A stretch of DNA of 64,000 nucleotides from Caldilineaceae bacterium (GTDB lineage Bacteria; Chloroflexota; Anaerolineae; Caldilineales; Caldilineaceae): assembly GCA_019637645.1 (NCBI GenBank), contig JAHBVH010000034.1, positions 23,172 to 87,171 on the forward strand, read 5' to 3'. Shown here piece after piece: positions 23,145 through 41,441 of the stretch (the stretch's first letter is position 1; every line of letters starts with the position of its first letter). The position numbers were made by a program, and so were the translations under genes. Below the pieces are notes generated by a model, which saw nothing but the letters and a program-made list of their open reading frames with translations, was not told the DNA's origin and did not search any database.

Positions 23145-24260
23145 TTACGGAGTCGGCATGATCAGTTGCAGCTTCTGTAGTTCACGCCGTACAGCATCCA
23201 AGGCCGACAGTGCATCGACCCGGATAAAGTCCAAATTGGTATGCCCCACCGTGTCGTCTTCATCATCCCCATCCTGGATCGTGACGCCCCCACGACGTAG
23301 ACAGGTCAACAGAAGATCGACCGGTGGCAACGTACCCATCGCGCGTAAGTAGAACTCCTGCACGAGCAAGATAATGCCTACCGTAACCGGGGTTGCTTGG
23401 CTAGTCCCTTGCTGAATCGATTCGCCATGGGCACCGTTGATTCCCGCCGCGGTCGCAAATGAACCTGGGGCAAAGATGCGTGTATAGCTCTGTCGATTAA
23501 CACTTTCATGGAGCCGTTGCGAAAAGGGGGTGATTTGTCCGGCGCGCGTGCGCCGCGCCAGTAGCCCGCCCCCATAGTCAAACTCACCAATATCGGTGTC
23601 ATAGACTGCGCCGACGCTAATACATTCGCGCAAGATAGCAGGATAGGCCATGCCTTGGGCGCTCTGGTGGGTAAAATAATCATTACCAGCAGCAATCACG
23701 ACTGGGACATGGGCGGCGCGCAAGGTGCGGAGCTGGTTGCGGATCGCGTCGTTGCCAAAGTTATCCTGTGTATAATTTTGTCGATCGCCCAACGACATAC
23801 AGACTGCGCTGATGGTATACGCGGCCCGCTGCTCAATGACCCACTGCAAGGCACGGCTAACGGCTTGAAAGGAGCCATCCCCCTCATTAGGAAGGACTTT
23901 CAGCGGGATCACATTGGCGGCAGGCGCAATGCCCACATGATCCCCATTGCCGACAATCAAGCCCGCCACATTGGTGCCATGCCCATCACCATCGGTAGCA
24001 TCGGCGTAGTTACCGCCATTATCATCGGTAAAGTTCACCTGTGTCAGAACGCGGCCAGCAAAGTCTACGTGGTGAGAATTCAAGCCCGTATCTAGCACAG
24101 CTACGGTCAAGCCTTGCCCCGAAACCCGAAACGCCTGCCGTGCCTGATTGACCCAAAGGAATTGGTCTACCTCTAGGTCAAAGCCCAGTTGTGGCCCATC
24201 GAATTGCCGCGGGCTTTTCACTGGCGGGATGTGTGTAGGACTCTTCTGTCTTTTTGCCAT
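23145..24260 (-). CDS. Subtilisin-like S8 serine peptidase without signal peptide
   Basis: A 371-residue peptidase with an intact subtilase site: Asp57 in VAVLDTGLN, His94 in DGDGHGTNVAG, oxyanion Asn193 in AAGND, and Ser287 in GTSQATP. The N-terminus (MAKRQKSPTHIPPV) is basic and short. There is no signal peptide and no room for an inhibitory propeptide of usual size. It therefore either acts inside the cell or leaves by a non-classical route. It starts 19 nt after the stop of the CHAT protein gene with its own AAGGA, so the two are almost certainly co-expressed. It may process or be processed by that protein. Confidence 0.92.
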   Translation of the reverse strand: MAKRQKSPTHIPPVKSPRQFDGPQLGFDLEVDQFLWVNQARQAFRVSGQGLTVAVLDTGLNSHHVDFAGRVLTQVNFTDDNGGNYADATDGDGHGTNVAGLIVGNGDHVGIAPAANVIPLKVLPNEGDGSFQAVSRALQWVIEQRAAYTISAVCMSLGDRQNYTQDNFGNDAIRNQLRTLRAAHVPVVIAAGNDYFTHQSAQGMAYPAILRECISVGAVYDTDIGEFDYGGGLLARRTRAGQITPFSQRLHESVNRQSYTRIFAPGSFATAAGINGAHGESIQQGTSQATPVTVGIILLVQEFYLRAMGTLPPVDLLLTCLRRGGVTIQDGDDEDDTVGHTNLDFIRVDALSALDAVRRELQKLQLIMPTP

Positions 24261-24279: not shown

Positions 24280-27200
24280 TTACTGCAAACGGTCTACCTG
24301 TAGGTGCACCGCCGGATCACCAAGCAGCAGATAGCCTTCGGCGTCGTTGCGAATCAACCAGTCATAGATCATGGCTTCTGATAAAGCTGATTCACCGGCT
24401 TCTAGACGGCTGCTCAGTTCGGTGGATTTCAAGGCGAAGCGGTCGTTAAAGTCCATGAGCGCCAGCCCCACCGGTTTCCCCGTTAGGATCTCGGTGAGCG
24501 CCTGACGAAATGCCGCCAAGCGAGGCTCGCGGTTTCGATTAGAGAATGAGGTCGTAAAGACTTTGTCCACATGACCGATACAGGCCAACGCACCGCCATT
24601 GGGATGGGCCAGCAAGCGTTGCGGCAGCGCGGCCACAAAGGGCTCTGCCGCCAAGCGGGGTGGGGCGCGCCGTTCCAGCAGAAGCTGCTTTTCATCCAGA
24701 AAACGATAGTGGGTAGGTGTGCCAGCCCCATAACAAGCAAAGAAAAACGCGATCAGCCCATGGACTTGGGCCGCATCGGTCAGATCCGCCGCGGCGAAGT
24801 AATCTTGCTCGTGCAAGGGCTGAGCATAGTCAGCGCGCTGACAGACCAACGCACCTTGCGCGGCCAATTGGCGGGGATCTTGCAGCGGCCACTCTGCGCC
24901 GTGAGTGGCCGTAAAGAGGAAAGCCGGAGGCGTAGCCGATTGTTCCGGTGGAATCAAGATCTCTGTCAAGGCCGCCTTGGTGGCGAGTGGCCCCCACAAA
25001 CCACGGCTAGCAAAGCCACAGTGCGCCGCCAGCCCTCCCCTTTGCCCACTGCTATCCTCCAGCAGCGGCTTCACAAGTTGCTCGGCACTGGCCGTAATGA
25101 CCGGATCACGCTCATCTTGGGTCGCAAAGAAGATCGCTTCCTTGCGATTGCGCACCGTGCCGCGTTCATAGGCAATGACACTCTCGACATAGCACGCATA
25201 CTCCTGCGCTGTCGCAAAGTGTAGCCGACCCACGGCATACTGCAGATCAAGCAGATGACCAAAGGCAAAGGGAATCCGCGCCGGGCTTCCCACGATCAAG
25301 AGATAAAAGGGCACACAGGCGGGATCGATGTCCCCCAGATGAACGCCATGGCGATCCAGCCACGCGTCAACCGTTTCCCCACTTCGATAGGTCAACTTAT
25401 GGATCACGGCAGGATTGTCTAACTGCTGCAAACGATGTTGATAGAGTGGCTCCAGCGCAGCCAAGACTTGTGCATCCTCATCTTCATGATAGAGCAGCCC
25501 CCAGCCCACAACGCCGGGATTCGTAATCGCCGCTAATTGGTTGGAGCCCAGCCCACGCTTGGTCTGCACAGCACGCAAGATCGTTGGAATGGGAGGAAGC
25601 GCCGGCGCGCGCCGCGTAACCTGAGGCCCTAAGTCGGCCAACGAAACGGGTGGATGAATGGCACCAGTCACCCCGGCAACGCCATTAAAAAAGACCAACG
25701 CGCGCTTGGCTGCGTCATGTCCGGCGACTGTTGGCGCACCGGCTGCTGCGCTTGGCTGCGGGGTACGTGTGCGCTGGCGCTGGCTAGCCGCTGTAGTGGC
25801 TGGGGTAGCCGCTGCAGCTGGCTTCAAGAGCCGGAAGTAGGGATCGCCATAATGTTGGTACGCGCCCCAGGTACGCACATCATGGGTTGGATTCGCTACA
25901 GCTAAACGCGCCGTGCGCATTGCTTCATACATAGGCAGGGGGGGGACCTGTTGATACATAGCGGGATTGCCCAGCTCACCGTCCTTCGTCCCAATCCCCA
26001 GCAGACAGGCGTATAAAGTTAGGGCGAAGTCCCGCGCCGCGCGATCATCAACGGGCCAGGCCGTGCAGATGAAGTTAGAAACGCCCCGCGCAAAGAAGGC
26101 TTCGGCCAGGCTAGGTGCTAATTTCCCCGAATAGGTTGGTTGGTGGTCACGGATGACCCCTGTCTCGCAGGCGTTGGAAAAGACAAATTTGGGAATCCGG
26201 TCAACGCGCGTAAATTCATGGGCACTCAGGCGTTCACCATTGGAAAAGAGCCAACCAGAGTTAGGTGGATCGGCTTCGTCATACAGACAATGACCACAGT
26301 AATGCAACAGATCATAGCTGCGTAACATCAGTTGGCGCAGCACAGCCGTGCGCGTTGCTTCACGCGGCCCAAAGAGCCGCACCACCTCGATCCGATTCTT
26401 GGTATTTGCGTAGAGGGTATTAAAACGTTCAAAGAGATCGGCCACATAGATCCCCTCCTCTTTTGCACCAATCAAGGGGGCATCCTGCGCCGGATCGGCC
26501 ACGACTAACACTCGGAGAATGCGCTCCACCGGTGGGGGCGGCTCGGGCGGTGGCGCAAAGCTGGTGCGCAATTGCCGCGTAAAGCCACGGCTGGCTCCCC
26601 AATATTGATTGGTTAATTCATCCTGATCTGTTGCCAGCGGCGCACTCGGCCCACTACGTTCGCTCTGTGCGAGTAGCTCCCAATGAATCCGCGCGGTAGT
26701 GGCATCTACCATCATTACAAGAGGGGCGTCAGAATAAAGCGGATTGCGCAGATCTTCGGGGATCAGCAACTTTTCCAGAAATTGTCCTAGCTGCACCTGG
26801 CGCTGCGGATCACGCTCGACCACCAGCTCTTCATTGGCCTGATTGACCAACTGCGGATCAAGGTGGATCTCCCGTTCGGGGATCGAAGCCGTATTGGTGA
26901 TCGCCCCAAAGCGATAGTTGTTCCCGGCAAGGGTAACCGCAATGCGCGTGGCGGCCTTTTCCCCAGCCGCTTCCTCCGGCTGAGACACGGCTGCTTGCAA
27001 CAGGTACAGCCGGGCCTGTTCTTGGTAGACGGTCTTGTCCCCTTCGGTTAGGGGGAGATATTGGATCAGCAGCCGACGCCGGTCGTTGAGCGTGTTAATT
27101 CCTTGCTGCAAGACACGGTCAACCTCAATCAACTTAGCCGGATCATGAATCACCAAAGTGAGATCTTGTAACCAATATTGAGCGCTCGTCAAGGCGTGTT

Positions 27201-29286
27201 TCAGCCCGCGCAGCCAACCAGAGACGGCGATCGGCAAGGAGAGATTGGACCGCCCCGCGCCAATGAGTACCGTGGCAAGATGTTTTTTACCCATACGTCC
27301 CAAGGACCAGCAAAGCTCGCGCACCAGAATCGTCAGCTCCGGCTCATTAAAGCGCCCAGGGGTGCCCATTCCGGCAATGGCAATCACCCGATCGACCCCC
27401 GCCGGCGCGGGCCGCGGATCAGGCAAAAAGAACGGCTGGGCCAATTCGCCCCGGATAATGCCACGCTGCGAGTATTGGTGTAACAGGAGATCCTCATCGG
27501 CTAAGCTAACGGTTGGATCAACGGTGGCTGTACCAGGCTGATAACGGCTGATCGACTGGTCCAGTTGATGCAGCAACCCGTGTGGCCGACTGCCCAGATA
27601 GTGTCCCATGGCAATGGCATCCACGGGGGTCGTTCCTGGCATGGCCGCCTGATGAATCTCCAACAAATCCCCACAGTGCAGATGCAACCGGATTGGCCGT
27701 GGGTCAATAGTAATCGTAAAGGGCAGTGCATCCGGCTGACGATTGCGCCCATAGAGAAAACCGCGCACGAGGGTGTCGCGCACCGCCTGCTCTTCTTCCG
27801 AAAAGTTCCCGCGGTCCAACGGGCGATCACTGCGAAAATGGATACGCCGCACTACGGCAGCCAGCTGTTTCCGATCATTCTGCCACGACGTTTCTAACAG
27901 GCTTTTGGCGATTGCCGGATCAAGCGATGCCTGCTTGCGGGTCGTCGTACTGGTTGTTTGTAAGCCATGGAGTTGGCCGAGGGCCGCTAGGTCCATGGGG
28001 GATAACGGGTGGGTCAGTAGCATCGACAGGGCCGAAAGCACGCCAGCGTTCGCGACCAAACCAGCGTGACTATCGGCAGCATAAAGCGTTGGCACCTTGG
28101 GCAGTAAGCCCAAGTGGTGCGCCACGCTCCCATCACCGGCGTTGCTAATGGCAAAGACTTGGTGAATCGAGCTAGCGTAGGCTTGCGCTTGGCGCGCCCA
28201 TTGGTTCAACTTATGATTTTTGGTAAAGAGTTCAAAAGGATCGTCTTCTGCGGCAAGGCGCGCTAAACCAGCTGGATCGGCAATGTCAACATAGGTTGGC
28301 TGGTTATCCCCGGCGATATAGAGGATCCGCGTGGGATCCAACATTGTCTCAGCCGCGGCGAGCGTGGCATGATCACGTTGCGCCTGGGCCAAATGGGCCG
28401 CTGAAATGGGCACAATCGCGCCATAACTAACTGGCTGATAGAGCGCATTCCGCAGCTTTTTGGATAACTTAGCGGGTGCCGGCAGCAGTTGGTAGACACT
28501 AGGAAATGAATTGACGACCTGCCGAAACACCGCATGATCATGCTGGGCATCCAACATATCGGCCCAATGGATCAGCGCGAGCTGGCCGCTCAGCGCTAGT
28601 GGCGCGCTATAGAGCCCATAGTTGGGTGTACCCAGCATAATGAGGCGCGCCATAGCCTGGTTGCCCGCTTTGCCGGTCACGTTCCAACGCTCAGGATAAT
28701 GGTGGATAAACCAGCGCGCCACTAATCCCCCCGTTGAATGCGCCACCAGATGGACCGGCTCATCATCAGGAAAGCTCTTCAGCGCGGCATGCAGCTCGGC
28801 CGCGGCAATCTTCACGTCTTTGCGCCAATCATAGGCAAAGAGTAAGAGATTCCAGTGTTCGGCCAACGTCAGAATGAGTTCCCCATAATACCGTTTGAGG
28901 ATGCCTGTTGCCGTAATCTTATAGGCTGGATCGGCCTCGCTACGCCCACTTTCATCCAATTGTAGGCGAGAGAGATGACCCGCAATGAGGTGGCGCGGAT
29001 TCAGCCAGATGTGCTCGCGCACCCCCTGTCGATCTTCCGAAGTGAGCTGGCTGCCCAACATCCCCGGGATCAGGACCACATTACCGCGCTGCTGGGTGTT
29101 CCGTAGATTGCGGCTCAGTTCACGGCGAAGCGCCAAACTGTGTAGCCGCTGATAGAGGGGATTCCCCAAATATTTACGCAGGGTATGTTCCTCAGCGGCG
29201 CTCGGCTGTAAAAGCAAATTGCTCAATTCCGCCGCGCCGGCTGCTTCTAGGCGGCCCAGATAGTCATATTCGTTAAGCATAGACAC
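24280..29286 (-). CDS. Giant lipase-like / macro-like / CHAT / C25-like protein
   Basis: A 1668-residue protein. Residues about 60-420 form an LCAT/PGAP1-like alpha/beta-hydrolase: VVLIPGMLGSQL oxyanion strand, Ser184 in VAHSTGGL, Asp385 in GDG, His407 in DSHAGL. About 530-720 looks like a macro-type fold (LHCGDLLEI, VDAIAMG, VIAIAGMG), similar to leucyl-aminopeptidase N-termini. About 850-1155 is a CHAT caspase-fold protease with His999 in HYCGHC and Cys1040 in FSNACETG. About 1255-1665 is a second caspase-like, C25/gingipain-like region with His1462 in TATHGAEW and Cys1518 in FFACYGAG. No signal peptide or membrane helix. AAAGGAG precedes the ATG. The subtilisin gene follows directly. Confidence 0.85.
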   Translation of the reverse strand: MSMLNEYDYLGRLEAAGAAELSNLLLQPSAAEEHTLRKYLGNPLYQRLHSLALRRELSRNLRNTQQRGNVVLIPGMLGSQLTSEDRQGVREHIWLNPRHLIAGHLSRLQLDESGRSEADPAYKITATGILKRYYGELILTLAEHWNLLLFAYDWRKDVKIAAAELHAALKSFPDDEPVHLVAHSTGGLVARWFIHHYPERWNVTGKAGNQAMARLIMLGTPNYGLYSAPLALSGQLALIHWADMLDAQHDHAVFRQVVNSFPSVYQLLPAPAKLSKKLRNALYQPVSYGAIVPISAAHLAQAQRDHATLAAAETMLDPTRILYIAGDNQPTYVDIADPAGLARLAAEDDPFELFTKNHKLNQWARQAQAYASSIHQVFAISNAGDGSVAHHLGLLPKVPTLYAADSHAGLVANAGVLSALSMLLTHPLSPMDLAALGQLHGLQTTSTTTRKQASLDPAIAKSLLETSWQNDRKQLAAVVRRIHFRSDRPLDRGNFSEEEQAVRDTLVRGFLYGRNRQPDALPFTITIDPRPIRLHLHCGDLLEIHQAAMPGTTPVDAIAMGHYLGSRPHGLLHQLDQSISRYQPGTATVDPTVSLADEDLLLHQYSQRGIIRGELAQPFFLPDPRPAPAGVDRVIAIAGMGTPGRFNEPELTILVRELCWSLGRMGKKHLATVLIGAGRSNLSLPIAVSGWLRGLKHALTSAQYWLQDLTLVIHDPAKLIEVDRVLQQGINTLNDRRRLLIQYLPLTEGDKTVYQEQARLYLLQAAVSQPEEAAGEKAATRIAVTLAGNNYRFGAITNTASIPEREIHLDPQLVNQANEELVVERDPQRQVQLGQFLEKLLIPEDLRNPLYSDAPLVMMVDATTARIHWELLAQSERSGPSAPLATDQDELTNQYWGASRGFTRQLRTSFAPPPEPPPPVERILRVLVVADPAQDAPLIGAKEEGIYVADLFERFNTLYANTKNRIEVVRLFGPREATRTAVLRQLMLRSYDLLHYCGHCLYDEADPPNSGWLFSNGERLSAHEFTRVDRIPKFVFSNACETGVIRDHQPTYSGKLAPSLAEAFFARGVSNFICTAWPVDDRAARDFALTLYACLLGIGTKDGELGNPAMYQQVPPLPMYEAMRTARLAVANPTHDVRTWGAYQHYGDPYFRLLKPAAAATPATTAASQRQRTRTPQPSAAAGAPTVAGHDAAKRALVFFNGVAGVTGAIHPPVSLADLGPQVTRRAPALPPIPTILRAVQTKRGLGSNQLAAITNPGVVGWGLLYHEDEDAQVLAALEPLYQHRLQQLDNPAVIHKLTYRSGETVDAWLDRHGVHLGDIDPACVPFYLLIVGSPARIPFAFGHLLDLQYAVGRLHFATAQEYACYVESVIAYERGTVRNRKEAIFFATQDERDPVITASAEQLVKPLLEDSSGQRGGLAAHCGFASRGLWGPLATKAALTEILIPPEQSATPPAFLFTATHGAEWPLQDPRQLAAQGALVCQRADYAQPLHEQDYFAAADLTDAAQVHGLIAFFFACYGAGTPTHYRFLDEKQLLLERRAPPRLAAEPFVAALPQRLLAHPNGGALACIGHVDKVFTTSFSNRNREPRLAAFRQALTEILTGKPVGLALMDFNDRFALKSTELSSRLEAGESALSEAMIYDWLIRNDAEGYLLLGDPAVHLQVDRLQ

Positions 29287-29532: not shown

Positions 29533-31332
29533 CTACTCTGTCACCGTTCCTACTGGAGCATGGGTCGTGAGGCTCTCCTCGGCGAGAATGCTGTAGGGGG
29601 TCACGGAAAAGTCACTTAGTGCGGGGTGGTTGAGAATGGTTGCGGCCAACTCACTCTCGGCAAAGGTCTGGACATCTTCCGGTGTATCAAAGAAGAGGAT
29701 ACCGCTGAATTGACTGTTCTCCTCATCCAGCGCCCAGATCTTCCAGCGTAGCCCTTCGGCGGCGGCGAATGCTTCGGCCAGGGGCGAGACTTCAGCGATA
29801 TAATCAGCCGTTGGCACGTTATAGGTGAAGTTGACCTGTAGCAAGGTGCCGATCCCCGCGGCGTCATTCGTGATCGCCGCGCCGACCGGCGCATGGGTGA
29901 TCATGGACTCGGCGGCCATCATGGCATACGCCTGCACCCGGAAGTCACTCAGCGCAGGGTGGCTTTGCACAGTGGCAAACAATTCTCCTTCGAGATAGGC
30001 TTGGCGGGCCGCGGCATTGGTAAAGAGATAGACACCACCCCCGCGACTTTCGGCTTCATCAATGATCCAACTCTTCCAGACCAAGCCCTCGACGGCGAGA
30101 AAAGCTTCCGCCATGCCCGCGGCCAGTGCACGGAATTCATCCGTCTCGACGTTGTAGGTGAAGTCCACTTCCAGGATGACGCCGGTCGCCACCTGATCCA
30201 GCAACACATTGGTCACTTCGATGGGAGCCGCGCGTTCATAGGTCGTGTAGATCGGGCAACGTTGGCGAAAGGCTTCCGCCATCATGGCGGCTTCTTCTTC
30301 GGTGGGGCCACTGACATTCATGGTGACACGGAAAGCCCGAATGCGCGGGTTGACCGGTGCCCCCGCCACGCCGCGGGGATCCAGATCCGCCTCGACGGTG
30401 GCATTGATCGCATTGAGGGCAATGCTCTCTTCGCGGGCCACGGCTTCGTAGATCATGATGCCACAGGCGGGTAGCGCTCCAACCAATGCATCCAGCGGGT
30501 TGACCTCTTCATTGGGTCCATTGATCGGCGGCACCGAGTCGAAGATCCAGTGGTTGCCGCGGGCCGACATGACACTGCGGCCAAATTCGATCATGCGGCC
30601 ACTCCCTGCGGGTTTGGCAAGTTCTGGGGCTTCGCCTTCGCGGTCGTTGTCCACAAGGGGATCGGCGGTGGTCGCAATGGGCTCCTGTGCCTCACCATCG
30701 ACGACGTTCGTCACACTAATGGGGGCCGAGAGGCCGAGCGTCGTGTAGATCGGGCAGCGGGTGCTAAAGGCTGCCGCCATCAGGGCGGCTTCTTCGACGC
30801 TCGGCCCGTCCACCTTCATTGTGACATGAAAAGCGCGCACACGGGGGTTGACATTCGCACCAGCCACACCACGGGGATCAAGTTCCCCCTGCACAGTGGC
30901 CGACAGGTTGTGCGTCGCAATCTCTTGCTCAATACCAACGGCTTCGTAGATGTACATGCCACAGGCGATCAGCGCCGTCAACATACCATCCAGCGGGTTA
31001 ACCTCTTCATTCGGGCCATTGATTGGTGGCACCGAATCGTAGATCCAATGATTACCACGGGCAGACATGAGTACACGCCCCGGCTGCACCAGATCCGCGG
31101 CCACTTTGGCAGTGACGAGTTGTAGATCTTCGGCAGGTTCCTCACTATCAGCCACATCACTATCAGCCACGGCGTCAGCAGAAGCGGTGTCACTTTCGCG
31201 CTCTTCTTCCGGGGCTGGTGTGGGTGTGGCCGTTTGTAAGGTTGGCGCGGCGTGCAAGACGGGTGCCAGTAGGGCAAAGAGCATAGTAAAGACAAACAGA
31301 ACAGCACACAACTTCCATTGCGAGTTCTTCAT
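29533..31332 (-). CDS. Exported protein with two OsmC and two YdhR domains
   Basis: A 599-residue protein with a signal peptide (about 1-28, cut after LHA) and an acidic Glu/Asp/Ala-rich linker to about residue 70. Two OsmC-like peroxidase domains follow (about 85-210 and 250-375), each with both redox Cys positions: Cys124/Cys193 and Cys290/Cys359. Two YdhR-type domains follow (about 383-483 and 495-592) with FTYNV, GLVWKSWIIDE and GGGVYLF. OsmC reduces organic peroxides; YdhR is a ferredoxin-like monooxygenase-type fold of unclear activity. AAGGAG lies 8 nt before the ATG. It precedes the CHAT gene by 246 bp on the same strand. Export of OsmC is unusual. Confidence 0.88.
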   Translation of the reverse strand: MKNSQWKLCAVLFVFTMLFALLAPVLHAAPTLQTATPTPAPEEERESDTASADAVADSDVADSEEPAEDLQLVTAKVAADLVQPGRVLMSARGNHWIYDSVPPINGPNEEVNPLDGMLTALIACGMYIYEAVGIEQEIATHNLSATVQGELDPRGVAGANVNPRVRAFHVTMKVDGPSVEEAALMAAAFSTRCPIYTTLGLSAPISVTNVVDGEAQEPIATTADPLVDNDREGEAPELAKPAGSGRMIEFGRSVMSARGNHWIFDSVPPINGPNEEVNPLDALVGALPACGIMIYEAVAREESIALNAINATVEADLDPRGVAGAPVNPRIRAFRVTMNVSGPTEEEAAMMAEAFRQRCPIYTTYERAAPIEVTNVLLDQVATGVILEVDFTYNVETDEFRALAAGMAEAFLAVEGLVWKSWIIDEAESRGGGVYLFTNAAARQAYLEGELFATVQSHPALSDFRVQAYAMMAAESMITHAPVGAAITNDAAGIGTLLQVNFTYNVPTADYIAEVSPLAEAFAAAEGLRWKIWALDEENSQFSGILFFDTPEDVQTFAESELAATILNHPALSDFSVTPYSILAEESLTTHAPVGTVTE

Positions 31333-32139: not shown

Positions 32140-35100
32140 TCAGTTGGCGGCTTGTTTGCGGATAGCCGTAAGAATCTCCCGGTGGCCGGGCATCGCCTCC
32201 CAGAACAACTGCTGGTGGGTAGGATCAGCGATGGTGGCGGCGCGAGCTTGCAGGTGGGCATACATCGCCTGCAACATCATGGACGAGCGCGAGTCCGCAA
32301 GCGCCTGCAGCACTTGATAGCAAACACGATAGATCTGCAGCGCTTCTTCGGTGCGATCGAGGTTGCGCGTTTCTAGCTGGGAGAGGATTTCTTCGACGAT
32401 CGCGCGTGCTTCGGATAGCTTCCCTTGCTGCAGTGCAATAGCGGCTAATCCGGCCATGGGCTCCAAACTGCGATTGTACTGTTCCATGGCAAACGCAAGC
32501 GCTTTGGCAGCTTGATAGTTCTGCTGGGCCGCGGCGAACTCGTTCAGGCCCAGCCATGCATGCCCCATCAAGGTATGCGCTAGGGCCATGTGACGCCTGT
32601 CTCCCCGCGGTTCAGCCGCCTGCAAGGCTTGCTCGCCATAGGCCAGCGCGACCGCGAATTCGGCGCGGTAGATATGCAACAAACCGAGCCAGTATAGCGC
32701 TATCGTGCGATGGGGCCGCGTCTTTTCTACCGTACGATAGCCCGCTAAAGCACGCTTTAAGAGCTGTTCGGCAGCTTCCCCATGGCCGGATTGCAAAGAA
32801 TAAAAGCCAAGATAAGCATGGGCAGTTGCGGCAAAGGTAACATTGGTTTCCTGTAGGAGGGTAATTGACTGGTGGAGGGCTGCGTCGGCTTTGTTGTAAT
32901 CGCCCGTATAGATATAGAGCCAACCGAGATTGCGCAAGAGCTGCCCACGGTCCACCGGTGTATTTAAGCGGTGGCTCAATGATAATCCCGCCTCAATATG
33001 ATCGATGGCTTGCGCATACCCATCTTCGCCTTGGGCAATCAACGCATAGGCCATCTTATGGTGAATGTTCATCTCGCCCCGCAAGTTGCCGCTATCCCGA
33101 TGAATATCAAGCGCTTCTTGCAGATAGTTGATGATTTCTGCATAAGGCGCGCCGGTGAACATCCCAACCGCACTGAGCCAGTTGAGCGCTTCGGCGATGT
33201 GCATGCGACTGTTAACTGTGCGCGCCGAGGCGAGGGCTTGGCGCAGCACAGCGCGTGCGTTGGGCAGATTACCTTGCTCAAAATAGACGATGCCACAGCG
33301 GCAGAACGCCTCTGATTCTGTCAAGTGGTCGCCATGCGTCCGGGCTAGACGAACCGCGGCTTGTGCAACTTGGACGGCATTGATATAGTCACCGGTAGCG
33401 GCATACCAGTTGGCCATTCGCATGTGGAAAACCGCTAGCAATCTTGCGCTTGGCGAAAATCTGCCTGGATCGCCATCCGCCTTCTCGTCTACAAGCGCCT
33501 GGATCGCCATCAGATCAGCCTGCTGGGCATCCAAGCGGCCAAGGAAATAGTAGACTTGCTCACGCGCCAGCAGCAGTTCCAGTCGTTTGAGAGCATCGGT
33601 TGTTGTCAGCAAGGCAAGCGCCCGTGAGAAATAGTCAATGGCCGCGCTGTTGGCAAATTGCGCCATAGCAAGCTCACCTGCCCGCTGTAAATAATCGACT
33701 GCTTTTGCAAAGAGCTTCGCCTGCTCATAATGTTCGGCCAGTCGGCCACAAACTTCATTGGGCGTCTCCTGATAGATCTGTTCCAGCGCTTCCGCTACCC
33801 GCCGGTGGAGCAGCCGCCGCCGCGTCTGGCTGATCTCGTTGTAGGCCACATCCCGAATACGGTCGTGGCTAAAGTCATAGCACTCTGCACCTTGTTCACG
33901 AATCAGTTGGCGCGCCAATAGCTCATCAAGCGCATCGACCACCGCCTCTTCGATGTCCTCTTCCCCCATCTCTTCCGCTCCTACGGTTGCGGCGAGCAGG
34001 ACAGGATAGGTAAACGAGCGCCCAATCGCCGCGGCAAGATTCACTACTCGCTGGGTTGCTGGCGCTAATTGTGCCAGCCGTTGGCGGATAACACTGTAAA
34101 GCTTGGGCGGTAGCCCGCTCGGGTTGGCGTCGGTAGTCAGAGATGCAATGGCCGCCTGCTGTGCACGCAGCAGCTCAACCACAAAGAGGGGATTGCCCGC
34201 GCTATCGGCATAGAGCTGGGTCAGCGCTGCCGTGGACAGGCTAACGGCCTGGACGGCCTGGGCGAGCGCCTGCACCTCTGCCCGGTCTAAAGGCGCAAGG
34301 GCCAACTCAGTGAGCAGATCATCACGACGCAGCACGGCAAGGAGGGTGGCTAAGGGATGGGTGCGGCTCACCTCACCAGTGCGGATCGTGCCAACGATAA
34401 GCAGGGGCGCGGTGTCGGCCATGCGCAGCAAAAAGTGTAACCACGTCAGCGTCTCGCTATCGGCCCATTGCAAGTCATCAAAGAGCAATACCACCGGCTG
34501 ACGGTCGGCCAAGATGGCGTGACCGAGTGCCGCCAAGAAGTGCTGCTGCTGCCAGCTCTCGGTCAGCGGCTGGGGTGGCGGCAAATTGGGGTGTTCGGCC
34601 AGCAGCGCAGGCAGCAACCGGGCAACATGGCTGAGTTGATTTTCGTTCAAACGCGGCAACCGTTGCCGAATCCCCGCGGCCTGTAATAATTCGACAATGG
34701 GCGCATAGGCCAATGCACCGTGTGTCTGATAGGAGCGTGTGCGCACAGCGAGAATGCCCTGTTGTCCTGCCCAATGGAGCATTTCTTCGGCCAGCCGCGT
34801 CTTCCCAATGCCCGCCTCCCCAGCAATGATGACCAGCCCTGGTTGTCCGCGCCGCGCCCGTTGCCAAGCCAGTTGGAGGAGCTGCCATTCACCGTGACGC
34901 CCAATGAGCGGGATCGGCTCCCCCGGAAACAACGCGGGGCTACCAACGGCAGTGGGCGCGATGGGGTGTCGTAGCTGTTCATAGAGGGCAACCGTCGCTG
35001 GGGCCGGTTCGACCCCCAGTTCTTGCTCCAGTCGCTGTACACACTCTTGGTAGACGCGCAATGCGCCGGTACGGTCGCCCGTGGCCGCCCGCAGCCGCAT

Positions 35101-35688
35101 CAACTGCTGGTAACTCTTCTCTTCTAGTGGATCGAGGAGGAGCAGCCGTTGGGCATAGTGAATGCCTTCCGCATAGGCCCGCTGATTCTCGAGCAGCGGC
35201 ACCAACCGTTCGAGTGCGGCCATCACCGCTTGGTGCAACTCTGTGCGCAGTGGGAGAATCCAGTCATCGTAACAAGTGGGCAACAGCTCGCCGCGGTAGT
35301 GCTCAAACAGGGCGGTGAGCAACGCTTGGTCTAGGGGCTTGGTGCGCAGTTGGGCAAGGATCTGTTCCACCTCAAGTACATCGCAAGTAAAGGGGGCATC
35401 TGTGCGCCAGGTGATCTGCTGGTTATCCGCGATGAGGAATGCCGCGACAGCAGGCAACTGTTGACGCAGTTGAAGGAGGAGCTTGCGTAGGTTGGTGCGC
35501 GCCTGACTTTCGCTCGAAACCGGCCAGAAGTGGAAAGCAAGCTGTTGACGAGAATGGGGCGCCCGGCAGTGAAGCACCAAATAGGCCAGCAGCGCTTGCA
35601 GCCGCGCCGCGGCAAAGCCAGCCACGGGGGCAGAGCCAAACGACAACTGAAAACGCCCTAGTAGGCTAATTTGTAGGTGCGGTGGCAT
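32140..35688 (-). CDS. BTAD-AAA-TPR transcriptional regulator-like protein
   Basis: A 1182-residue cytoplasmic protein. Residues 1-95 form a winged-helix-like DNA-binding domain opening ISLLGRFQLSFG. Residues 100-245 form the bacterial transcriptional activation domain (BTAD) of SARP/AfsR regulators. A LuxR/MalT-type ATPase follows, with Walker A GEAGIGKT (290-297) and Walker B VVLLFDDLQWAD near residue 400. From about 640 to the end there are tetratricopeptide repeats. Such proteins sense a signal through the TPR region and activate nearby genes. No C-terminal LuxR helix-turn-helix is present. The target is not evident; the exported OsmC gene downstream on the same strand is one candidate. 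Confidence 0.88.
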   Translation of the reverse strand: MPPHLQISLLGRFQLSFGSAPVAGFAAARLQALLAYLVLHCRAPHSRQQLAFHFWPVSSESQARTNLRKLLLQLRQQLPAVAAFLIADNQQITWRTDAPFTCDVLEVEQILAQLRTKPLDQALLTALFEHYRGELLPTCYDDWILPLRTELHQAVMAALERLVPLLENQRAYAEGIHYAQRLLLLDPLEEKSYQQLMRLRAATGDRTGALRVYQECVQRLEQELGVEPAPATVALYEQLRHPIAPTAVGSPALFPGEPIPLIGRHGEWQLLQLAWQRARRGQPGLVIIAGEAGIGKTRLAEEMLHWAGQQGILAVRTRSYQTHGALAYAPIVELLQAAGIRQRLPRLNENQLSHVARLLPALLAEHPNLPPPQPLTESWQQQHFLAALGHAILADRQPVVLLFDDLQWADSETLTWLHFLLRMADTAPLLIVGTIRTGEVSRTHPLATLLAVLRRDDLLTELALAPLDRAEVQALAQAVQAVSLSTAALTQLYADSAGNPLFVVELLRAQQAAIASLTTDANPSGLPPKLYSVIRQRLAQLAPATQRVVNLAAAIGRSFTYPVLLAATVGAEEMGEEDIEEAVVDALDELLARQLIREQGAECYDFSHDRIRDVAYNEISQTRRRLLHRRVAEALEQIYQETPNEVCGRLAEHYEQAKLFAKAVDYLQRAGELAMAQFANSAAIDYFSRALALLTTTDALKRLELLLAREQVYYFLGRLDAQQADLMAIQALVDEKADGDPGRFSPSARLLAVFHMRMANWYAATGDYINAVQVAQAAVRLARTHGDHLTESEAFCRCGIVYFEQGNLPNARAVLRQALASARTVNSRMHIAEALNWLSAVGMFTGAPYAEIINYLQEALDIHRDSGNLRGEMNIHHKMAYALIAQGEDGYAQAIDHIEAGLSLSHRLNTPVDRGQLLRNLGWLYIYTGDYNKADAALHQSITLLQETNVTFAATAHAYLGFYSLQSGHGEAAEQLLKRALAGYRTVEKTRPHRTIALYWLGLLHIYRAEFAVALAYGEQALQAAEPRGDRRHMALAHTLMGHAWLGLNEFAAAQQNYQAAKALAFAMEQYNRSLEPMAGLAAIALQQGKLSEARAIVEEILSQLETRNLDRTEEALQIYRVCYQVLQALADSRSSMMLQAMYAHLQARAATIADPTHQQLFWEAMPGHREILTAIRKQAAN

Positions 35689-36181: not shown

Positions 36182-36410
36182 CCGGCAAGCGGACAACGCT
36201 GTCAGCATGCCTATCTTCGATAGCTTTTGCTTTTTCGATCCCACTCAGGTAAAATGACGATGCTCGCTTGGTCGCCAATTGCGACTTTTGACGCAGCTGT
36301 GTTTGCCTGAACGCACCTAGACGGTGTGGAGACGGCGTGAAGACATCGGTGACAAACAACGCCAGCTGCCAACAAAGACCTGTCAACGCCGGAACAACAA
36401 AACATACCTA

Positions 36411-39400
36411 ATGGTCTCTCTTCAGTTAACTCTCTTTGGCACCTTCCAGTTAACCTTGGATGGCGCGCCCATTACGCGGTTTCGTAGTCAGCGAGAAGTG
36501 GCCTTGTTGGTCTACTTGGCGGTGGAAGCCCGCCAAGCCCATCCACGGGAGCGCCTAGCGGGCCTCCTCTGGCCCGATAAGCCCGAAGCGACCGCACGGC
36601 AGAATCTCCGTCAGACGTTGATGAATTTGCGCACGCTGCTGAATGACGATCAGCGCCCCATTCCGCTCCTGCTCACCGAGCGGAATACCGTTCAATGGAA
36701 CGGGAACAGCAGCTACACCCTGGATGTAGAAACCTTTCGCAAGCAGCTAGCCGCTTGTGCTAGCTGTCCGCATTTGGATCTAGCCACCTGTGCGGATTGT
36801 CAGGCGCGCCTGAGCGAGGCGGTCGCCCTCTATCAAGGGCCCTTTTTAAGTAACTTTGCCTTTAGCGATAGTGATCTCTTTGAAGAATGGCTGCTCCTGA
36901 CGCGTGAGCATTTTCAGCAACAAGTGCTACAGACGTTGAGCCTCTTGAGCGCTAGCGCTTTTGCCCAAGGTCATTGGGCCAAGGTAGAGCAATGGGCCCG
37001 GCGGCAGGTAACCCTCGATCCACTGCATGAACCAGCACAACGCTACTTGATCCAAGCATTGACCAACAAAGGCGACCGCGGTGGTGCTCTCAGTCACTTC
37101 GAAAACTTTGCCGCCTACTTGCAGCGCGAATTGGGCGTTGAGCCAAGCCCCGAAACACTCGCCTTGATCGAGCAGCTCCGCACGAATGCCCCTTCTACGC
37201 AACCGGCTAGGCGTGTCAGCCGCGAACTGCCACCCCAAAGCCCATCACCCCAAAGCCCATCACCCCAAAGCCCATCGTCACGGGCTTCGGCGAGTGCCAA
37301 TATCTATCAACTAGCCGCCGGCAAACTCACCGATCTTCTCTCGCCCCCCCCTATCTCAGCCCAATCGGTGGCTGAAGCGCAGACAGCCCCCCCATCAGCC
37401 CATCAGCCCATCAACCCCACTGCGCTGCGCGATTGGGGGGGTACTGCGCCCAATAGCCTATTTGTAGGCCGACAAGCCGAAGAAGGCCAAGTGAGCGGGT
37501 GGCTGCAAAGCGGTGTCCGGGTGATCTGCCTGTGGAACTGGGCTGGCATGGGGAAGACAGCGCTAGCTCAAGCGGTGGCGCGTAGCCAGGCCGACCATTT
37601 TTCAGTGGTCATCTGGCGTTCGGTAGCCAATGCACCATCCTTACCCACCTTGTTGGACGACTGGCTGGCCCGATTGGGTGAGTCCGCGACGGCAGGTGCC
37701 ACGACAACGCTTGATCACCAATTGAACCGGCTCTTTGATCACCTGCGCAGCCGCCGTACTTTGCTGGTGCTAGACAACCTCGAAGCGCTCATGCAGCCAG
37801 GATTGGCCGGGCGCTTTCAACCAGAACATGAAATCTATAACCAGTTCTTACAGCGCTTTGTCCAGAGCGACCACCAAAGTGTGCTCCTGCTGGCCAGCCG
37901 CGAGCAGCTCGAGTTGTTTGCGCGCCTAGAAGAGGAAACCCCGCTGGTCCGTTCATTGGCAGTCGCTGGGCTTGGGGTTACGGCTGGGCAACAGTTGCTA
38001 GCGGCCCATGGGCTCTCTTTGTCTGCCGCGGCGGCGGCACCGCTGATTGCGCGTTTCGATGGCAACCCGACTCTGCTCCAATTTGCCGCTCACTCGATCC
38101 AAGATCTCTTTGGTGGCGATGTAACCGCCTTTTTTAGTCAAGAAGCGCTGATGTATGGCCCGATCCGAGAGCTCTTTGACCACTATCGCGCCCGGCTACC
38201 CTATATTGAAGGTGCGCTTTTGATCTGGCTCGCGCTCGCCTGTGAGCCTGTGCCCCTCGCCCAATTGCGCACGACCCTTGTCCCCCCGATTGCGCCCGAA
38301 CTCGCCACAGAAGGGGCACGCTATTCACCGAATGGTTTTTTCGAAGCGATTCACTCCTTGCAGCGACGTGGCTTGTTAGAGCAAACGCCAGCCGGCTTTA
38401 CCACTGTTGCCACCGTGGTCCAGAATATGAGTAGCTTCATGCTGGAGCTGCTCATGCAGGAGATCCTCGCGGGAAAAGCTGGGGCAGGGCTCTATGAGGT
38501 GGCGCTGGTGAATCCGTTGGCAACCGAGGAGACCCAACAAAAACAACTCGATCGGCTGGTGCGTCCGCTGGTGGCACAGATTGTGCAACAACTGGGCTAC
38601 GCTGGGCTAGCCGCGCGGCTAGCCCAGTTGGAGACGGCCGCGCGGCAGGCCCCCTTGTCAACGCGCAACTACCTCCAGGAAAATCTGGCAACCTTGTCCA
38701 CCTATCTGCGCACGCGCTATGTGGCAGCTGGGCAAACCGAGGTCGTGCAGCTTGAGCCATTGGTCCCTCCGATTGCAGTCTCAGCAGCGCACACCTCTCC
38801 CGCAGAATCGAGTGCGTCCATCCCCGCGGTCCTGCCCGATCAACTGACGCCTATCGTGGGGCGTGAGCGCGAACTCGCCGAATTAATCGAGCGGCTGCGT
38901 CAGCCTGCGGTCCGGCTAATGACCTTGGTTGGCGCGGGTGGCCTGGGTAAAACCACCTTGGCGTTGGCAGTGGCGCAAGCATTATTGGCCGAGGCCCGCG
39001 TCGCCCCCAACACGATCTATGCTGATGGGATCTTCTTTGTGGCCCTTGCCCCGCTGACCAGCGCCGCGGAGTTACCTTCGGCCATCGCGACAGTTCTCGG
39101 GCTGAGCCTACAGGGGAGTGATCTCAGCCAAGCCTTGGCACAGCAGCTACGCCATAAACAGCTCCTGTTGATCTTGGACAATGTGGAACATCTGCTGCAC
39201 GAAGCGCCCCAAACCGCGCCCAGTGATAGTCGCAGTGACAGGCGCAGCATTCATACGATCATCGACGTGGTACAGAGCGCACACGGTGTGCAGATCCTCA
39301 CCACCTCGCGCGAGCGGCTGAATTTGCGCGGTGAACATCTCTACCCCGTGCCGCCCCTCGCTTTTGCCGAGCGGGCGACGCTGGCCGAGGCGAAGACCGC

Positions 39401-41441
39401 GCCCGCGGTACAGCTCTTTGTCCAGAATGCCCAGCGGAGTGATACCAGCTTTGATCTCACGACTGCCGATCTGCCGGCAGTCGTGCGCATCTGTCAGTTG
39501 GTGCAAGGGATGCCCCTAGGCTTGGAATTGGCCGCGGCCCATGTCGGGCTCTTGCCCCTCGCCGCGATCGCCAGTGAGATCGAGCGCAGTGCCGAGTTTC
39601 TAGCCGTAGATTGGCATGATGTCCCCGAGCGCCAACGCAGTCTGCGTGCGGTCTTTGATTGGTCGTGGCAGTTGCTCAATCCAACCGAGCAACATACCCT
39701 GCGCCAACTGGCGATCTTCCGCGGGGGCTTTACACGGGCGGCGGCCCAGCAAATCGCGAATGCCAACTTACCCGCGCTCACGAATTTATGGCGCAAATCA
39801 TTGTTGCAACGGACAGAAGCTAACACAGCTGGCAGTGTAACGGGGGAGCGGTATCAGATCCACGAATTGCTCCGCCAATTTGCCATGGAGCAGCTCGACA
39901 ACGAACCAGCGGCGGAGCAAGCAGTGCACGCTCGTCATGCACTTTATTATTTACAATGGCTGATGGCCCAGCAGGTCGATCTCAGTGGTCCACGCTACCA
40001 AGCCACGCTCCATGCCGTCGAGAGCGAAGTGGGAAACCTAACCGCGGCTTGGGCGTGGGCCATTGCCCAGCGGAACCTGGACTTGCTCGCCGCAGTCATT
40101 CCTAGCCTAAGCGCTTACTATCAGCGGCGCGGGCGCTACCAAGAAGGCTATGCGGCCTGTCAAAACTTAGTCAGCCAACTGGGTCCAACCCCCACCGCAG
40201 ATGACGCGGTATTGGCCGTGGGCCAGGGCCTAGCCTACCAAGGGGCCTTTGCCATTGAATTGAAGCGCCTGACCGAAGCGCGCGCCTTGTTAGAGCACAG
40301 TCTACGCTTGCTTAACCGCCCAGCTTTTCAGGCCGCCTCTGCTTTTGTCTATTACTCGCTAGGGTATACCGCCGCGCTGCAAGGCCAATTAGCACAAGCG
40401 CATAGTTGGCTAGAAAGAGGGCTTACGCTATACCAGGAGCACGGTGATCGGCTTGGCGCAGCGCTCACCCTTCATCGTTTGGGTCGCCTCGCTTGGCTAA
40501 CGGGGGAATACACCCAAGCGCACCATTGGCACAGCAAAAGCCTTGCGCTTTATCGTATGCTCGATGACCGCATGGGGGCCATTCATGCGATCAGCGATCT
40601 GGCAATGGTCAGTGTGTTGGTTGATCGGGTGCTGGAAGCGACGCAGCTCTTTGCCGAAGCGAATACGCTGATCGAACTATTGGATGATCCACTTGAAAGC
40701 GCCGAGGCGCGGCGGCGGTTGGGCTGGCTCCTTGCCCAAGTGGGGTACAATCAGGCCGCGCAGGAGCAGTACGAAATTTGTCTCACCCTCATTACGACGG
40801 CCCAAGAGGAGCATTTTCGCCTGGAAGCCTACTTGATGCTGAGTTATCTCCACCTCATGCAATGTCACTATACGCAAGCCCTTACCCTGAGCCAAGCCTT
40901 GTTCGAGCATGCCTCACCGTTGGGTATCCAGCGTGATGCCGCCTTTGGGTTGATGTTGCAGGGGCTAGCTGGGTTGGGGCAAGGTGACTATCCACAAGCA
41001 CGCACACACTTGCAGCGTGCGCTAGCCCTCTTTCAGGGCATTAGCAACACCGACGACCAAAGCTATGCCTTGCTTGGCTTGAGCTATGCCCAGCGCGCCC
41101 TGGGAGACAGCGCTGGGGCGCGCCAGAGTGTCCTCACCGTCCTGCGCGATGCCGTCACCAGCAGAAGTACGCGCGGGATGCGGCTGGCGTTGGGTGCCTA
41201 TGTTGGCCGCCTGCTTGAAGAGCAGAAAATCGAACAAGCGATCGAGTTAGAAAGCTTATTCATGGCCCACCCCTACCACGGCAATTCCCTCTTTTACCGC
41301 CACTTGATCACGGAACCGGTGCTCGCTCAAGCAGCGACATCCTTGCCCGCGACAGCCATTACGGCGGCCCAACGGCGTGGGCAAACGCGCGATCTGATCG
41401 CGACCATCGATGAACTGTGGGCAGCCACCCAAACCAATTGA
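36411..41441 (+). CDS. BTAD regulator with two NB-ARC-type ATPases and TPR repeats
   Basis: A 1676-residue protein. The N-terminus MVSLQLTLFGTFQL begins a winged-helix plus BTAD region to about residue 265. A linker rich in Ser and Pro carries a PQSPS repeat. ATPase 1 has a P-loop WAGMGKTALAQ near residue 377 and LLVLDNLEALM. ATPase 2 has GAGGLGKTTLA near 843, LLLILDNVEHLL and TTSRERLNLRGEHLYP. TPR repeats fill about 1190-1650. The upstream in-frame reading from 36324 has no family match, so I start at 36411; no clear ribosome-binding site. It faces away from the other BTAD gene across about 720 bp of debris. Two ATPase modules in one such regulator are unusual. Confidence 0.88.
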   Translation: MVSLQLTLFGTFQLTLDGAPITRFRSQREVALLVYLAVEARQAHPRERLAGLLWPDKPEATARQNLRQTLMNLRTLLNDDQRPIPLLLTERNTVQWNGNSSYTLDVETFRKQLAACASCPHLDLATCADCQARLSEAVALYQGPFLSNFAFSDSDLFEEWLLLTREHFQQQVLQTLSLLSASAFAQGHWAKVEQWARRQVTLDPLHEPAQRYLIQALTNKGDRGGALSHFENFAAYLQRELGVEPSPETLALIEQLRTNAPSTQPARRVSRELPPQSPSPQSPSPQSPSSRASASANIYQLAAGKLTDLLSPPPISAQSVAEAQTAPPSAHQPINPTALRDWGGTAPNSLFVGRQAEEGQVSGWLQSGVRVICLWNWAGMGKTALAQAVARSQADHFSVVIWRSVANAPSLPTLLDDWLARLGESATAGATTTLDHQLNRLFDHLRSRRTLLVLDNLEALMQPGLAGRFQPEHEIYNQFLQRFVQSDHQSVLLLASREQLELFARLEEETPLVRSLAVAGLGVTAGQQLLAAHGLSLSAAAAAPLIARFDGNPTLLQFAAHSIQDLFGGDVTAFFSQEALMYGPIRELFDHYRARLPYIEGALLIWLALACEPVPLAQLRTTLVPPIAPELATEGARYSPNGFFEAIHSLQRRGLLEQTPAGFTTVATVVQNMSSFMLELLMQEILAGKAGAGLYEVALVNPLATEETQQKQLDRLVRPLVAQIVQQLGYAGLAARLAQLETAARQAPLSTRNYLQENLATLSTYLRTRYVAAGQTEVVQLEPLVPPIAVSAAHTSPAESSASIPAVLPDQLTPIVGRERELAELIERLRQPAVRLMTLVGAGGLGKTTLALAVAQALLAEARVAPNTIYADGIFFVALAPLTSAAELPSAIATVLGLSLQGSDLSQALAQQLRHKQLLLILDNVEHLLHEAPQTAPSDSRSDRRSIHTIIDVVQSAHGVQILTTSRERLNLRGEHLYPVPPLAFAERATLAEAKTAPAVQLFVQNAQRSDTSFDLTTADLPAVVRICQLVQGMPLGLELAAAHVGLLPLAAIASEIERSAEFLAVDWHDVPERQRSLRAVFDWSWQLLNPTEQHTLRQLAIFRGGFTRAAAQQIANANLPALTNLWRKSLLQRTEANTAGSVTGERYQIHELLRQFAMEQLDNEPAAEQAVHARHALYYLQWLMAQQVDLSGPRYQATLHAVESEVGNLTAAWAWAIAQRNLDLLAAVIPSLSAYYQRRGRYQEGYAACQNLVSQLGPTPTADDAVLAVGQGLAYQGAFAIELKRLTEARALLEHSLRLLNRPAFQAASAFVYYSLGYTAALQGQLAQAHSWLERGLTLYQEHGDRLGAALTLHRLGRLAWLTGEYTQAHHWHSKSLALYRMLDDRMGAIHAISDLAMVSVLVDRVLEATQLFAEANTLIELLDDPLESAEARRRLGWLLAQVGYNQAAQEQYEICLTLITTAQEEHFRLEAYLMLSYLHLMQCHYTQALTLSQALFEHASPLGIQRDAAFGLMLQGLAGLGQGDYPQARTHLQRALALFQGISNTDDQSYALLGLSYAQRALGDSAGARQSVLTVLRDAVTSRSTRGMRLALGAYVGRLLEEQKIEQAIELESLFMAHPYHGNSLFYRHLITEPVLAQAATSLPATAITAAQRRGQTRDLIATIDELWAATQTN
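37231..37275 (+). repeat. Three exact 15-bp tandem repeats inside the regulator gene
   Basis: The unit CACCCCAAAGCCCAT occurs three times in tandem. It is in frame and encodes the PQSPS linker between the BTAD region and the first ATPase. Copy-number change would alter linker length by five residues without a frameshift. Confidence 0.95.

Follow-up and report, generated by a model that had tools for sequence, protein, structure and literature searches.

A Caldilineaceae protein joining lipase, M17-N, CHAT and C25 folds as a candidate effector core of an apoptosis-like protease system

Here, we analysed a stretch of 64,000 nucleotides (the window) from a Caldilineaceae bacterium of the phylum Chloroflexota (GenBank assembly GCA_019637645.1, contig JAHBVH010000034.1, positions 23,172 to 87,171 of the forward strand). 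One minus-strand gene of the window encodes a four-domain protein, in which an LCAT-like lipase, an M17-N/macro-like domain, a CHAT protease and a C25-type caspase-fold protease follow one another (Table 1). A first-pass annotation, made from the sequence without database searches, had placed this open reading frame (ORF) correctly while remaining silent on its strand, and had described a chain of 1668 residues. The ORF indeed counts 1668 codons from GTG 29286, but the protein probably starts at codon 3 (ATG 29280, 1666 residues), because an AAGGAG run lies 7 bases 5' of this ATG and the database record of the same protein (P0002) holds 1666 residues. Residues are numbered here with GTG 29286 as residue 1. 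An assembly artefact is unlikely since three further full-length relatives from other sources cover 100% of the query at 83, 68 and 55% identity. Mean hydropathy exceeds 1.46 in no 19-residue stretch of the chain and 0.64 in none near its start, so that a signal peptide, already noted as absent in the first-pass annotation, or a membrane helix is unlikely. All seven active-site-like residues proposed there were found at their positions. Structure prediction and fold search supported the calls of LCAT, macro/M17-N, CHAT and C25 folds, with each of these residues at the catalytic place of its fold and conserved in relatives.

Table 1 Features of the four-domain gene and of the protease gene downstream of it (window coordinates).
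Feature	Position	Strand	Basis or remark
Four-domain protein gene	24280..29286	-	1668 codons from GTG 29286; ATG 29280 likelier (1666 amino acids)
Conserved N-terminal helical segment, residues 6-61, four helices	29104..29271	-	model secondary structure
LCAT / group XV phospholipase A2-like alpha/beta hydrolase, residues 66-427	28006..29091	-	fold of family PF02450
Lipase triad S184, D385, H407	28735-28737, 28132-28134, 28066-28068	-
M17-N / macro-like domain, residues 531-736	27079..27696	-	fold
CHAT protease (PF12770), residues 776-1154	25825..26961	-	Pfam 1.2e-25
CHAT dyad H999, C1040	26290-26292, 26167-26169	-
Low-confidence CHAT-C25 linker, residues ~1155-1195	25702..25824	-	predicted local distance difference test (pLDDT) mostly <50
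C25 (gingipain-type) caspase-fold protease, structured from ~residue 1198	24283..25695	-	fold
C25 dyad H1462, C1518	24901-24903, 24733-24735	-
Subtilase (Peptidase_S8), 371 amino acids, 19 bp downstream of the four-domain gene	23145..24260	-	Pfam S8 5.8e-38

A search of the database with the window protein returned 736 relatives at an E value of 1e-3 or better, and a scan of species genomes yielded 62 loci of the lipase-M17N-CHAT core, spread over Thermomicrobiales, Pyrinomonadaceae, Myxococcaceae, Gemmatimonadaceae, Planctomyces, Verrucomicrobia, Nitrospira, Hymenobacter, Chlorobiota and more, indicating that this core is a widespread family. Among the best 120 of the 736 relatives, which where named come from Chloroflexota, Acidobacteriota and others, 116 cover 64-73% of the query (approximately residues 1-1160), and these are 1066-1277 amino acids long except for P0107 (1586 amino acids). 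The C25 part alone found 3832 relatives, the best 120 of which are mostly proteins of about 480 amino acids. By these sequence matches, the C25 part is a member of a different, even larger set, and the window chain is a fusion of both. The four-domain protein was not assigned to any family in an NCBIfam search. The listed relatives mostly bear the names ‘CHAT domain-containing protein’, ‘hypothetical protein’ or ‘pimeloyl-ACP methyl ester carboxylesterase’, and P0065 is named ‘CHAT domain/Lecithin:cholesterol acyltransferase’, so an annotation pipeline had already seen that pair. Conservation was read from an alignment of 170 rows, two of which are the window protein and its own record P0002; no core ORF was called in 3 of the 62 loci (L014, L024, L048), and 10 of the other 59, shorter than 850 amino acids, were excluded. 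Trees were built with FastTree and midpoint-rooted, the first without P0002 and L053 and the second without P0002.

In the structure model, the CHAT residues His999 (in YCGHC) and Cys1040 (in SNACE) stand at the ends of strands 993-1001 and 1034-1041. Cys1040 is kept in all 170 rows and His999 in 169, the remaining row (L010) being masked; together with the Pfam match, this bears out the CHAT protease suggested in the first-pass annotation. Comparison of the model of residues 66-427 with known structures revealed the alpha/beta-hydrolase fold of LCAT and group XV phospholipase A2, and Tle4 (4r1d) matches this domain by fold as well as by profile. Ser184 (in VAHSTGG) lies between strand 178-183 and helix 186-196, Asp385 (in AGDGS) in a two-residue bridge directly after strand 378-381, and His407 (in DSHA) in a loop past strand 400-403. 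A profile alignment puts Ser184 on the serine that is alanine in 4x92 and Asp385 on GDG, and stops short of the histidine.

The proposed lipase triad thus stands for the window protein, but its activity may be optional across the family. Asp385 is kept in 169 and His407 in 160 of the 170 rows, Ser184 in only 123; it is replaced in 46 (22 Ala, 23 Gly, 1 Thr), with a gap in one further row, and the serine state takes eight parsimony changes on a tree of 168 rows. In L021, the serine position falls within a diverged motif where the alignment is unsure. The whole lipase domain is missing in some relatives (L043, L047, L050, L053, L055). Because the CHAT dyad is near-invariant while the serine is often lost, the protease is the constant element. 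The loss of the serine next to a retained aspartate and histidine, as well as the relatives devoid of the domain, would also suit a lipid-gated protease, with an LCAT-like domain that in much of the family has no enzymatic role, or has lost it, and instead senses membranes or lipids. We regard this as quite improbable. The triad is complete in the window protein and in its three nearest relatives, most rows keep the serine, and in serine-less rows the lipase domain is variable relative to CHAT (mean entropy 1.67 vs 1.14, compared to 1.59 vs 1.53 in serine-bearing rows), a pattern in line with relaxed constraint and not with conservation for sensing.

The segment between lipase and CHAT, initially read as macro-like, does have a macro fold by comparison of its model, and this third domain looks like the M17-N variety of it: Pfam M17_N scores above its cut-off in the relative L092, and PepA is the sole macro-type chain among the 50 VIA rows listed. 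This domain perhaps gates the protein in response to a nucleotide or a molecule derived from nicotinamide adenine dinucleotide (NAD).

The caspase-like fold of the C-terminal part comes nearest to gingipain in the model comparison. His1462 (in ATHG) and Cys1518 (in FACYG) both directly follow strands and are kept in 134 of 134 rows, in agreement with the C25-like dyad suggested earlier. A profile search of the C25 part against the PDB gave nothing at E values up to 1, so that the link to gingipain rests on the fold; the Pfam C25 stretch in the window protein falls mainly over CHAT. The low-confidence linker between the two proteases holds an arginine or lysine in all four fused proteins compared and is, from the model, a candidate processing site. 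Relatives without a fused module show 107 C-terminal tails of at least 15 amino acids (median 43), which are basic (mean K+R 23%, D+E 10%). At the other end of the chain, residues 6-61 have no Pfam match and form a possible adaptor domain, in which Glu14 is identical in at least 95% of the aligned relatives; matches from Nitrospira loci start only at residues 27-33.

The four-domain gene is followed by a gene for a subtilase, in which no signal peptide was seen by sequence and hydropathy, and the short gap between the two contains a ribosome-binding-like run. This subtilase is 46.6% identical to the S8 domain fused to the core in L010, the best of four matches among the ORFs of the 62 loci. 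The first-pass annotation had proposed a self-contained protease/lipase effector. Protease and lipase folds are present, but the chain is probably not self-contained, because the subtilase lies only 19 bases downstream and some relatives have a metacaspase gene upstream; judged from gene order, the chain probably works with a partner protease.

This pattern of a second protease recurs in several forms. A C14 metacaspase gene lies directly upstream of the core on the same strand, with a gap of at most 222 bp, in 17 of the 62 loci (7 Nitrospira-type, 5 Hymenobacter, and, going by record titles, one each from Thermomicrobiales, Caldilineaceae, Bryobacterales, Pyrinomonadaceae and Blastocatellia). 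About 0.004 such cases would be expected by chance, given 127 C14 matches in 255.7 Mb of 49 of these genomes, an estimate that treats the loci as independent though 12 of the 17 are Nitrospira-type or Hymenobacter, and that uses C14 counts which are lower bounds (none is reported for genome G024, yet its locus L024 holds a C14 fragment with both motifs at a contig edge). Control genomes had C14 in 0 of 14 cases. A further C14 gene lies at 1.5 kb in L012; the core ORF of L042, one of the 17, received a long call that overlaps the C14 gene. Both catalytic motifs are kept in 16 of 19 C14 genes, the Cys motif being missing in L046, L058 and L059; in these three Hymenobacter loci the core also lacks the lipase serine, perhaps a joint decay. 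Five of seven C14-bearing neighbours scanned are single-domain proteins of 266-286 amino acids, and in Hymenobacter the C14 domain is fused behind an Amidase_2 domain (Pfam shown for L058).

A CHAT-C25 fusion occurs both in the window clade and in L053. The CHAT of L053 falls in a different clade of 28 tips (support 1.0), and the closest company of its C25 in the tree is P0129 (806 amino acids, C25 being its only Pfam domain listed) instead of the window C25, so by the trees the fusion apparently arose twice independently. L010 and P0107, sister to the window clade in a 1080-column tree (support 0.976), both carry an S8 domain fused to the core; in L060 a subtilase gene has a CHAT gene on either side, one of them with an M17_N match slightly under the cut-off, and L032 carries a phospholipase-D-like domain in the C-terminal place. 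As the partners are fused in one lineage and adjacent in another, their joint action is well supported.

Stand-alone C25 genes were also considered as simple neighbours of lipase-CHAT genes. This idea largely failed: the window C25 had no match other than the fusion L053 among the ORFs of the 62 loci, and C25 matches were found in 6 of 49 core-bearing genomes and in 8 of 147 genomes of one class. Elsewhere, stand-alone C25 genes adjoin CHAT-HEAT genes (1242-1306 amino acids) in four loci (L083-L086) from the class to which the L018 genome belongs, and may represent a second C25-CHAT system; two of these CHAT-HEAT genes were assigned by Pfam and the others by BLAST, and a NACHT match in one of the two is below cut-off. 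Another stand-alone C25 gene lies behind CHAT-SIR2 and nSTAND1-WD40 genes (L088), one precedes an LCAT-like gene by 22 bp (L089), and in L065 (2-2832) a C14 match comes after a C25 ORF of equal orientation, placing two caspase-fold proteases side by side.

The relatives are also recurrently linked to defence-type modules. Pfam was run on part of the neighbours of the 62 loci. A SIR2_2 gene was found within 5 kb in at least 4 of the 62 loci (L005, L027, L050, L054; 0.15 expected), and SIR2_2 occurred in 2 of 14 control genomes. Proteins with nSTAND1 lie at most 2 kb from the core in L016, L018, L021 and L050; in L026 a patatin with a TPR-S domain is encoded upstream of the core and a DUF4062 protein downstream of it, and L033 holds a patatin fragment. 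The plasmid search gave 15 records, all below 60% identity and none covering 80%. The member on a Rhizobium plasmid, with LCAT, M17_N and CHAT all above Pfam cut-offs, has a SIR2 gene beside it and an endonuclease gene nearby; on an Azotobacter plasmid the core neighbours transposases, a recombinase, a Fic gene and a DNA methyltransferase gene, and on a Paracoccus plasmid it stands between an unannotated gene of 1081 amino acids, which precedes it, and nitrate-reductase genes. A fourth plasmid inspected, from Ensifer, carries no annotation. In locus L021 (194-15741, Caldilineaceae), the lipase-CHAT core has a CHAT-nSTAND1-FGE gene next to it; the locus also holds three metacaspase-bearing genes, one of which is a fusion with nSTAND1-WD40. 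One study describes DUF4062 as a TIR-like NADase in phage defence (PMC13174449), and another reports that caspase-nuclease loci defend against phage (PMC12799240). The terms CHAT and LCAT are absent from the accessible main text of an eLife survey of conflict systems (PMC7159879).

We therefore suggest that the gene product is the effector core of an apoptosis-like system in the cytoplasm, which probably serves defence against invaders by cell suicide and works through a protease cascade, a reading from sequence to which we assign a probability of about 0.57. Computation shows the folds, conserved dyads, gene order and recurring partners on which it rests. Several observations weigh against it, among them the frequent loss of the lipase serine. 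The conflict-system effector assumed in the first-pass annotation gains from the neighbours and fusions of the relatives, but the surroundings of the window gene itself contain no defence island, as judged from 17 ORF products scanned with Pfam and 4 with PADLOC, the latter giving no more than BovA over the CHAT part, a weak match at 0.0017. The scanned neighbours in the window comprise two SARP-type regulators, an OsmC-YdhR fusion and glycosidase-like, chromate-transport, RadA-like, prolyl-oligopeptidase and hydantoinase genes. Relatives, too, have ordinary neighbours, such as genes for methionine synthase (L015), glutamyl-tRNA synthetase (L041), HMG-CoA synthase (L011), an LpxD-like transferase (L004), glucuronate isomerase (L050) and gluconolactonase (L047). 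For 40 of the 62 loci, with neighbours partly annotated and some contigs short, no C14, C25 or S8 partner turned up next to the core, and the scarcity of C25 among core-bearing genomes (6 of 49) points the same way. In a tree of CHAT alone, P0107 does not stand beside the window clade (nearest P0007, support 0.70), and among the viral contigs scanned none of 13 pattern matches was a relative.

The CHAT fold resembles that of separase, and the CHAT protein HetF is tied to cell division in cyanobacteria. The protein could accordingly be a developmental or cell-cycle protease whose CHAT domain cuts a few regulatory proteins in normal life, with lipase and C25 as accessories. We consider this unlikely, as the exchange of the C-terminal module (C25, S8, phospholipase-D-like) and the SIR2, patatin-TPR-S, nSTAND1-WD40 and amidase-caspase neighbours fit conflict systems better. 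Far less probable still is a degradative or antibacterial role outside the cell, where the secreted or injected enzyme would digest lipids and proteins. Gingipains are secreted proteases, and LCAT-like folds occur in exported effectors such as Tle4; yet neither the chain nor its S8 neighbour shows a signal peptide or membrane helix, no secretion-system family was found by Pfam among the 17 window ORF products scanned, and most of the C14-bearing neighbours scanned are small single-domain proteins.

Returning to the apoptosis-like system, its action may be pictured in four steps. The CHAT protease would be released by an oligomerising partner or by a signal that the M17-N/macro-like domain reads, perhaps a nucleotide or a molecule derived from NAD; an NAD-derived signal is attractive because NADase genes neighbour the core in some relatives. 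CHAT would then act as initiator and cut a few targets, among them the linker to its own C25 domain and/or the neighbouring subtilase, or, in relatives, the metacaspase encoded directly upstream, as the fusions and operon-like partnerships suggest. The executioner would be the second protease thus set free, C25 and S8 in the window and C14 or S8 in other members, judging from folds and residues. Finally, the unmasked phospholipase-like domain might attack the membrane, whereas in serine-less members it could serve only for docking or be a vestigial module. In its most specific form, a one-chain caspase cascade with its own membrane-lysing enzyme, an NAD-derived signal (from the SIR2 and DUF4062 NADases of some relatives) would pass via M17-N/macro to CHAT, free C25 and activate the subtilase while the phospholipase breaks the membrane, and the core would form a new widespread initiator class with C14, C25 and S8 executioners differing by phylum; taken as a whole, we hold this only tentatively and as rather unlikely.

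Other features of the window concern its regulators and an enzyme fusion. Upstream of the four-domain gene on the same strand, 29533-31332 (-) encodes 599 amino acids with OsmC (272-373) and a YdhR-type mono-oxygenase (386-482), an unusual fusion. The two SARP-type regulators, 32140-35688 (-) and 36324-41441 (+), are divergent and have BTAD, NTPase and TPR parts; the latter seems to hold two NTPase modules (NB-ARC 388-485, NACHT 864-999). A SARP link between the window and L010 is weak. Families of clustered regularly interspaced short palindromic repeats (CRISPR) systems or of sensors had no Pfam match among the 17 ORF products, and no dedicated CRISPR search was run.

Bacterial caspase-fold proteases are known as effectors or activators in several defence systems. 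Compared to group XV phospholipase A2 and LCAT, the window protein is bacterial, lacks a signal peptide, is fused to proteases and belongs to a family in which about a quarter of rows have replaced the serine. It shares the fold of its M17-N domain with M17 leucyl aminopeptidase and macro domains, but the aminopeptidase catalytic domain was not found in it. Unlike gingipains, its C25 module has no signal peptide and comes from a mostly stand-alone family. In contrast to TPR-CHAT (Csx29) of Craspase and to SAVED-CHAT, CHAT is preceded here by M17-N and lipase. A precedent is a type III-B CRISPR system in which a SAVED-CHAT protease is encoded with a second caspase-fold protease and which reportedly runs as a cascade of proteolytic cleavages; here, the second protease is fused or of C14, S8 or C25 type, and a lipase is added. 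The Canu caspase-nuclease defence (PMC12799240) likewise combines a caspase-family protease with a partner effector that it activates, although the partner proposed here is another protease or lipase instead of a nuclease. A search of the open-access literature, which leaves most subscription papers outside, revealed no lipase-M17N-CHAT protein in titles or openings of abstracts of the papers listed, and the earlier statement that no protein with this domain order has been described is not contradicted there. The parts are known; their combination and the pattern of second proteases were not met in the open-access literature searched.

What emerges is one conserved core, carrying a phospholipase fold like that of the human lysosomal enzyme, which is tied by fusion or gene order to three kinds of second protease. 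Relatives encoded beside further proteases of caspase type hint at an apoptosis-like switch in bacteria, and the idea of initiator-executioner protease cascades in bacteria outside CRISPR is now testable. If true, the lipase-M17N-CHAT core would represent a new, widespread class of initiators that recruits different executioners, be they C14, C25 or S8 proteases.
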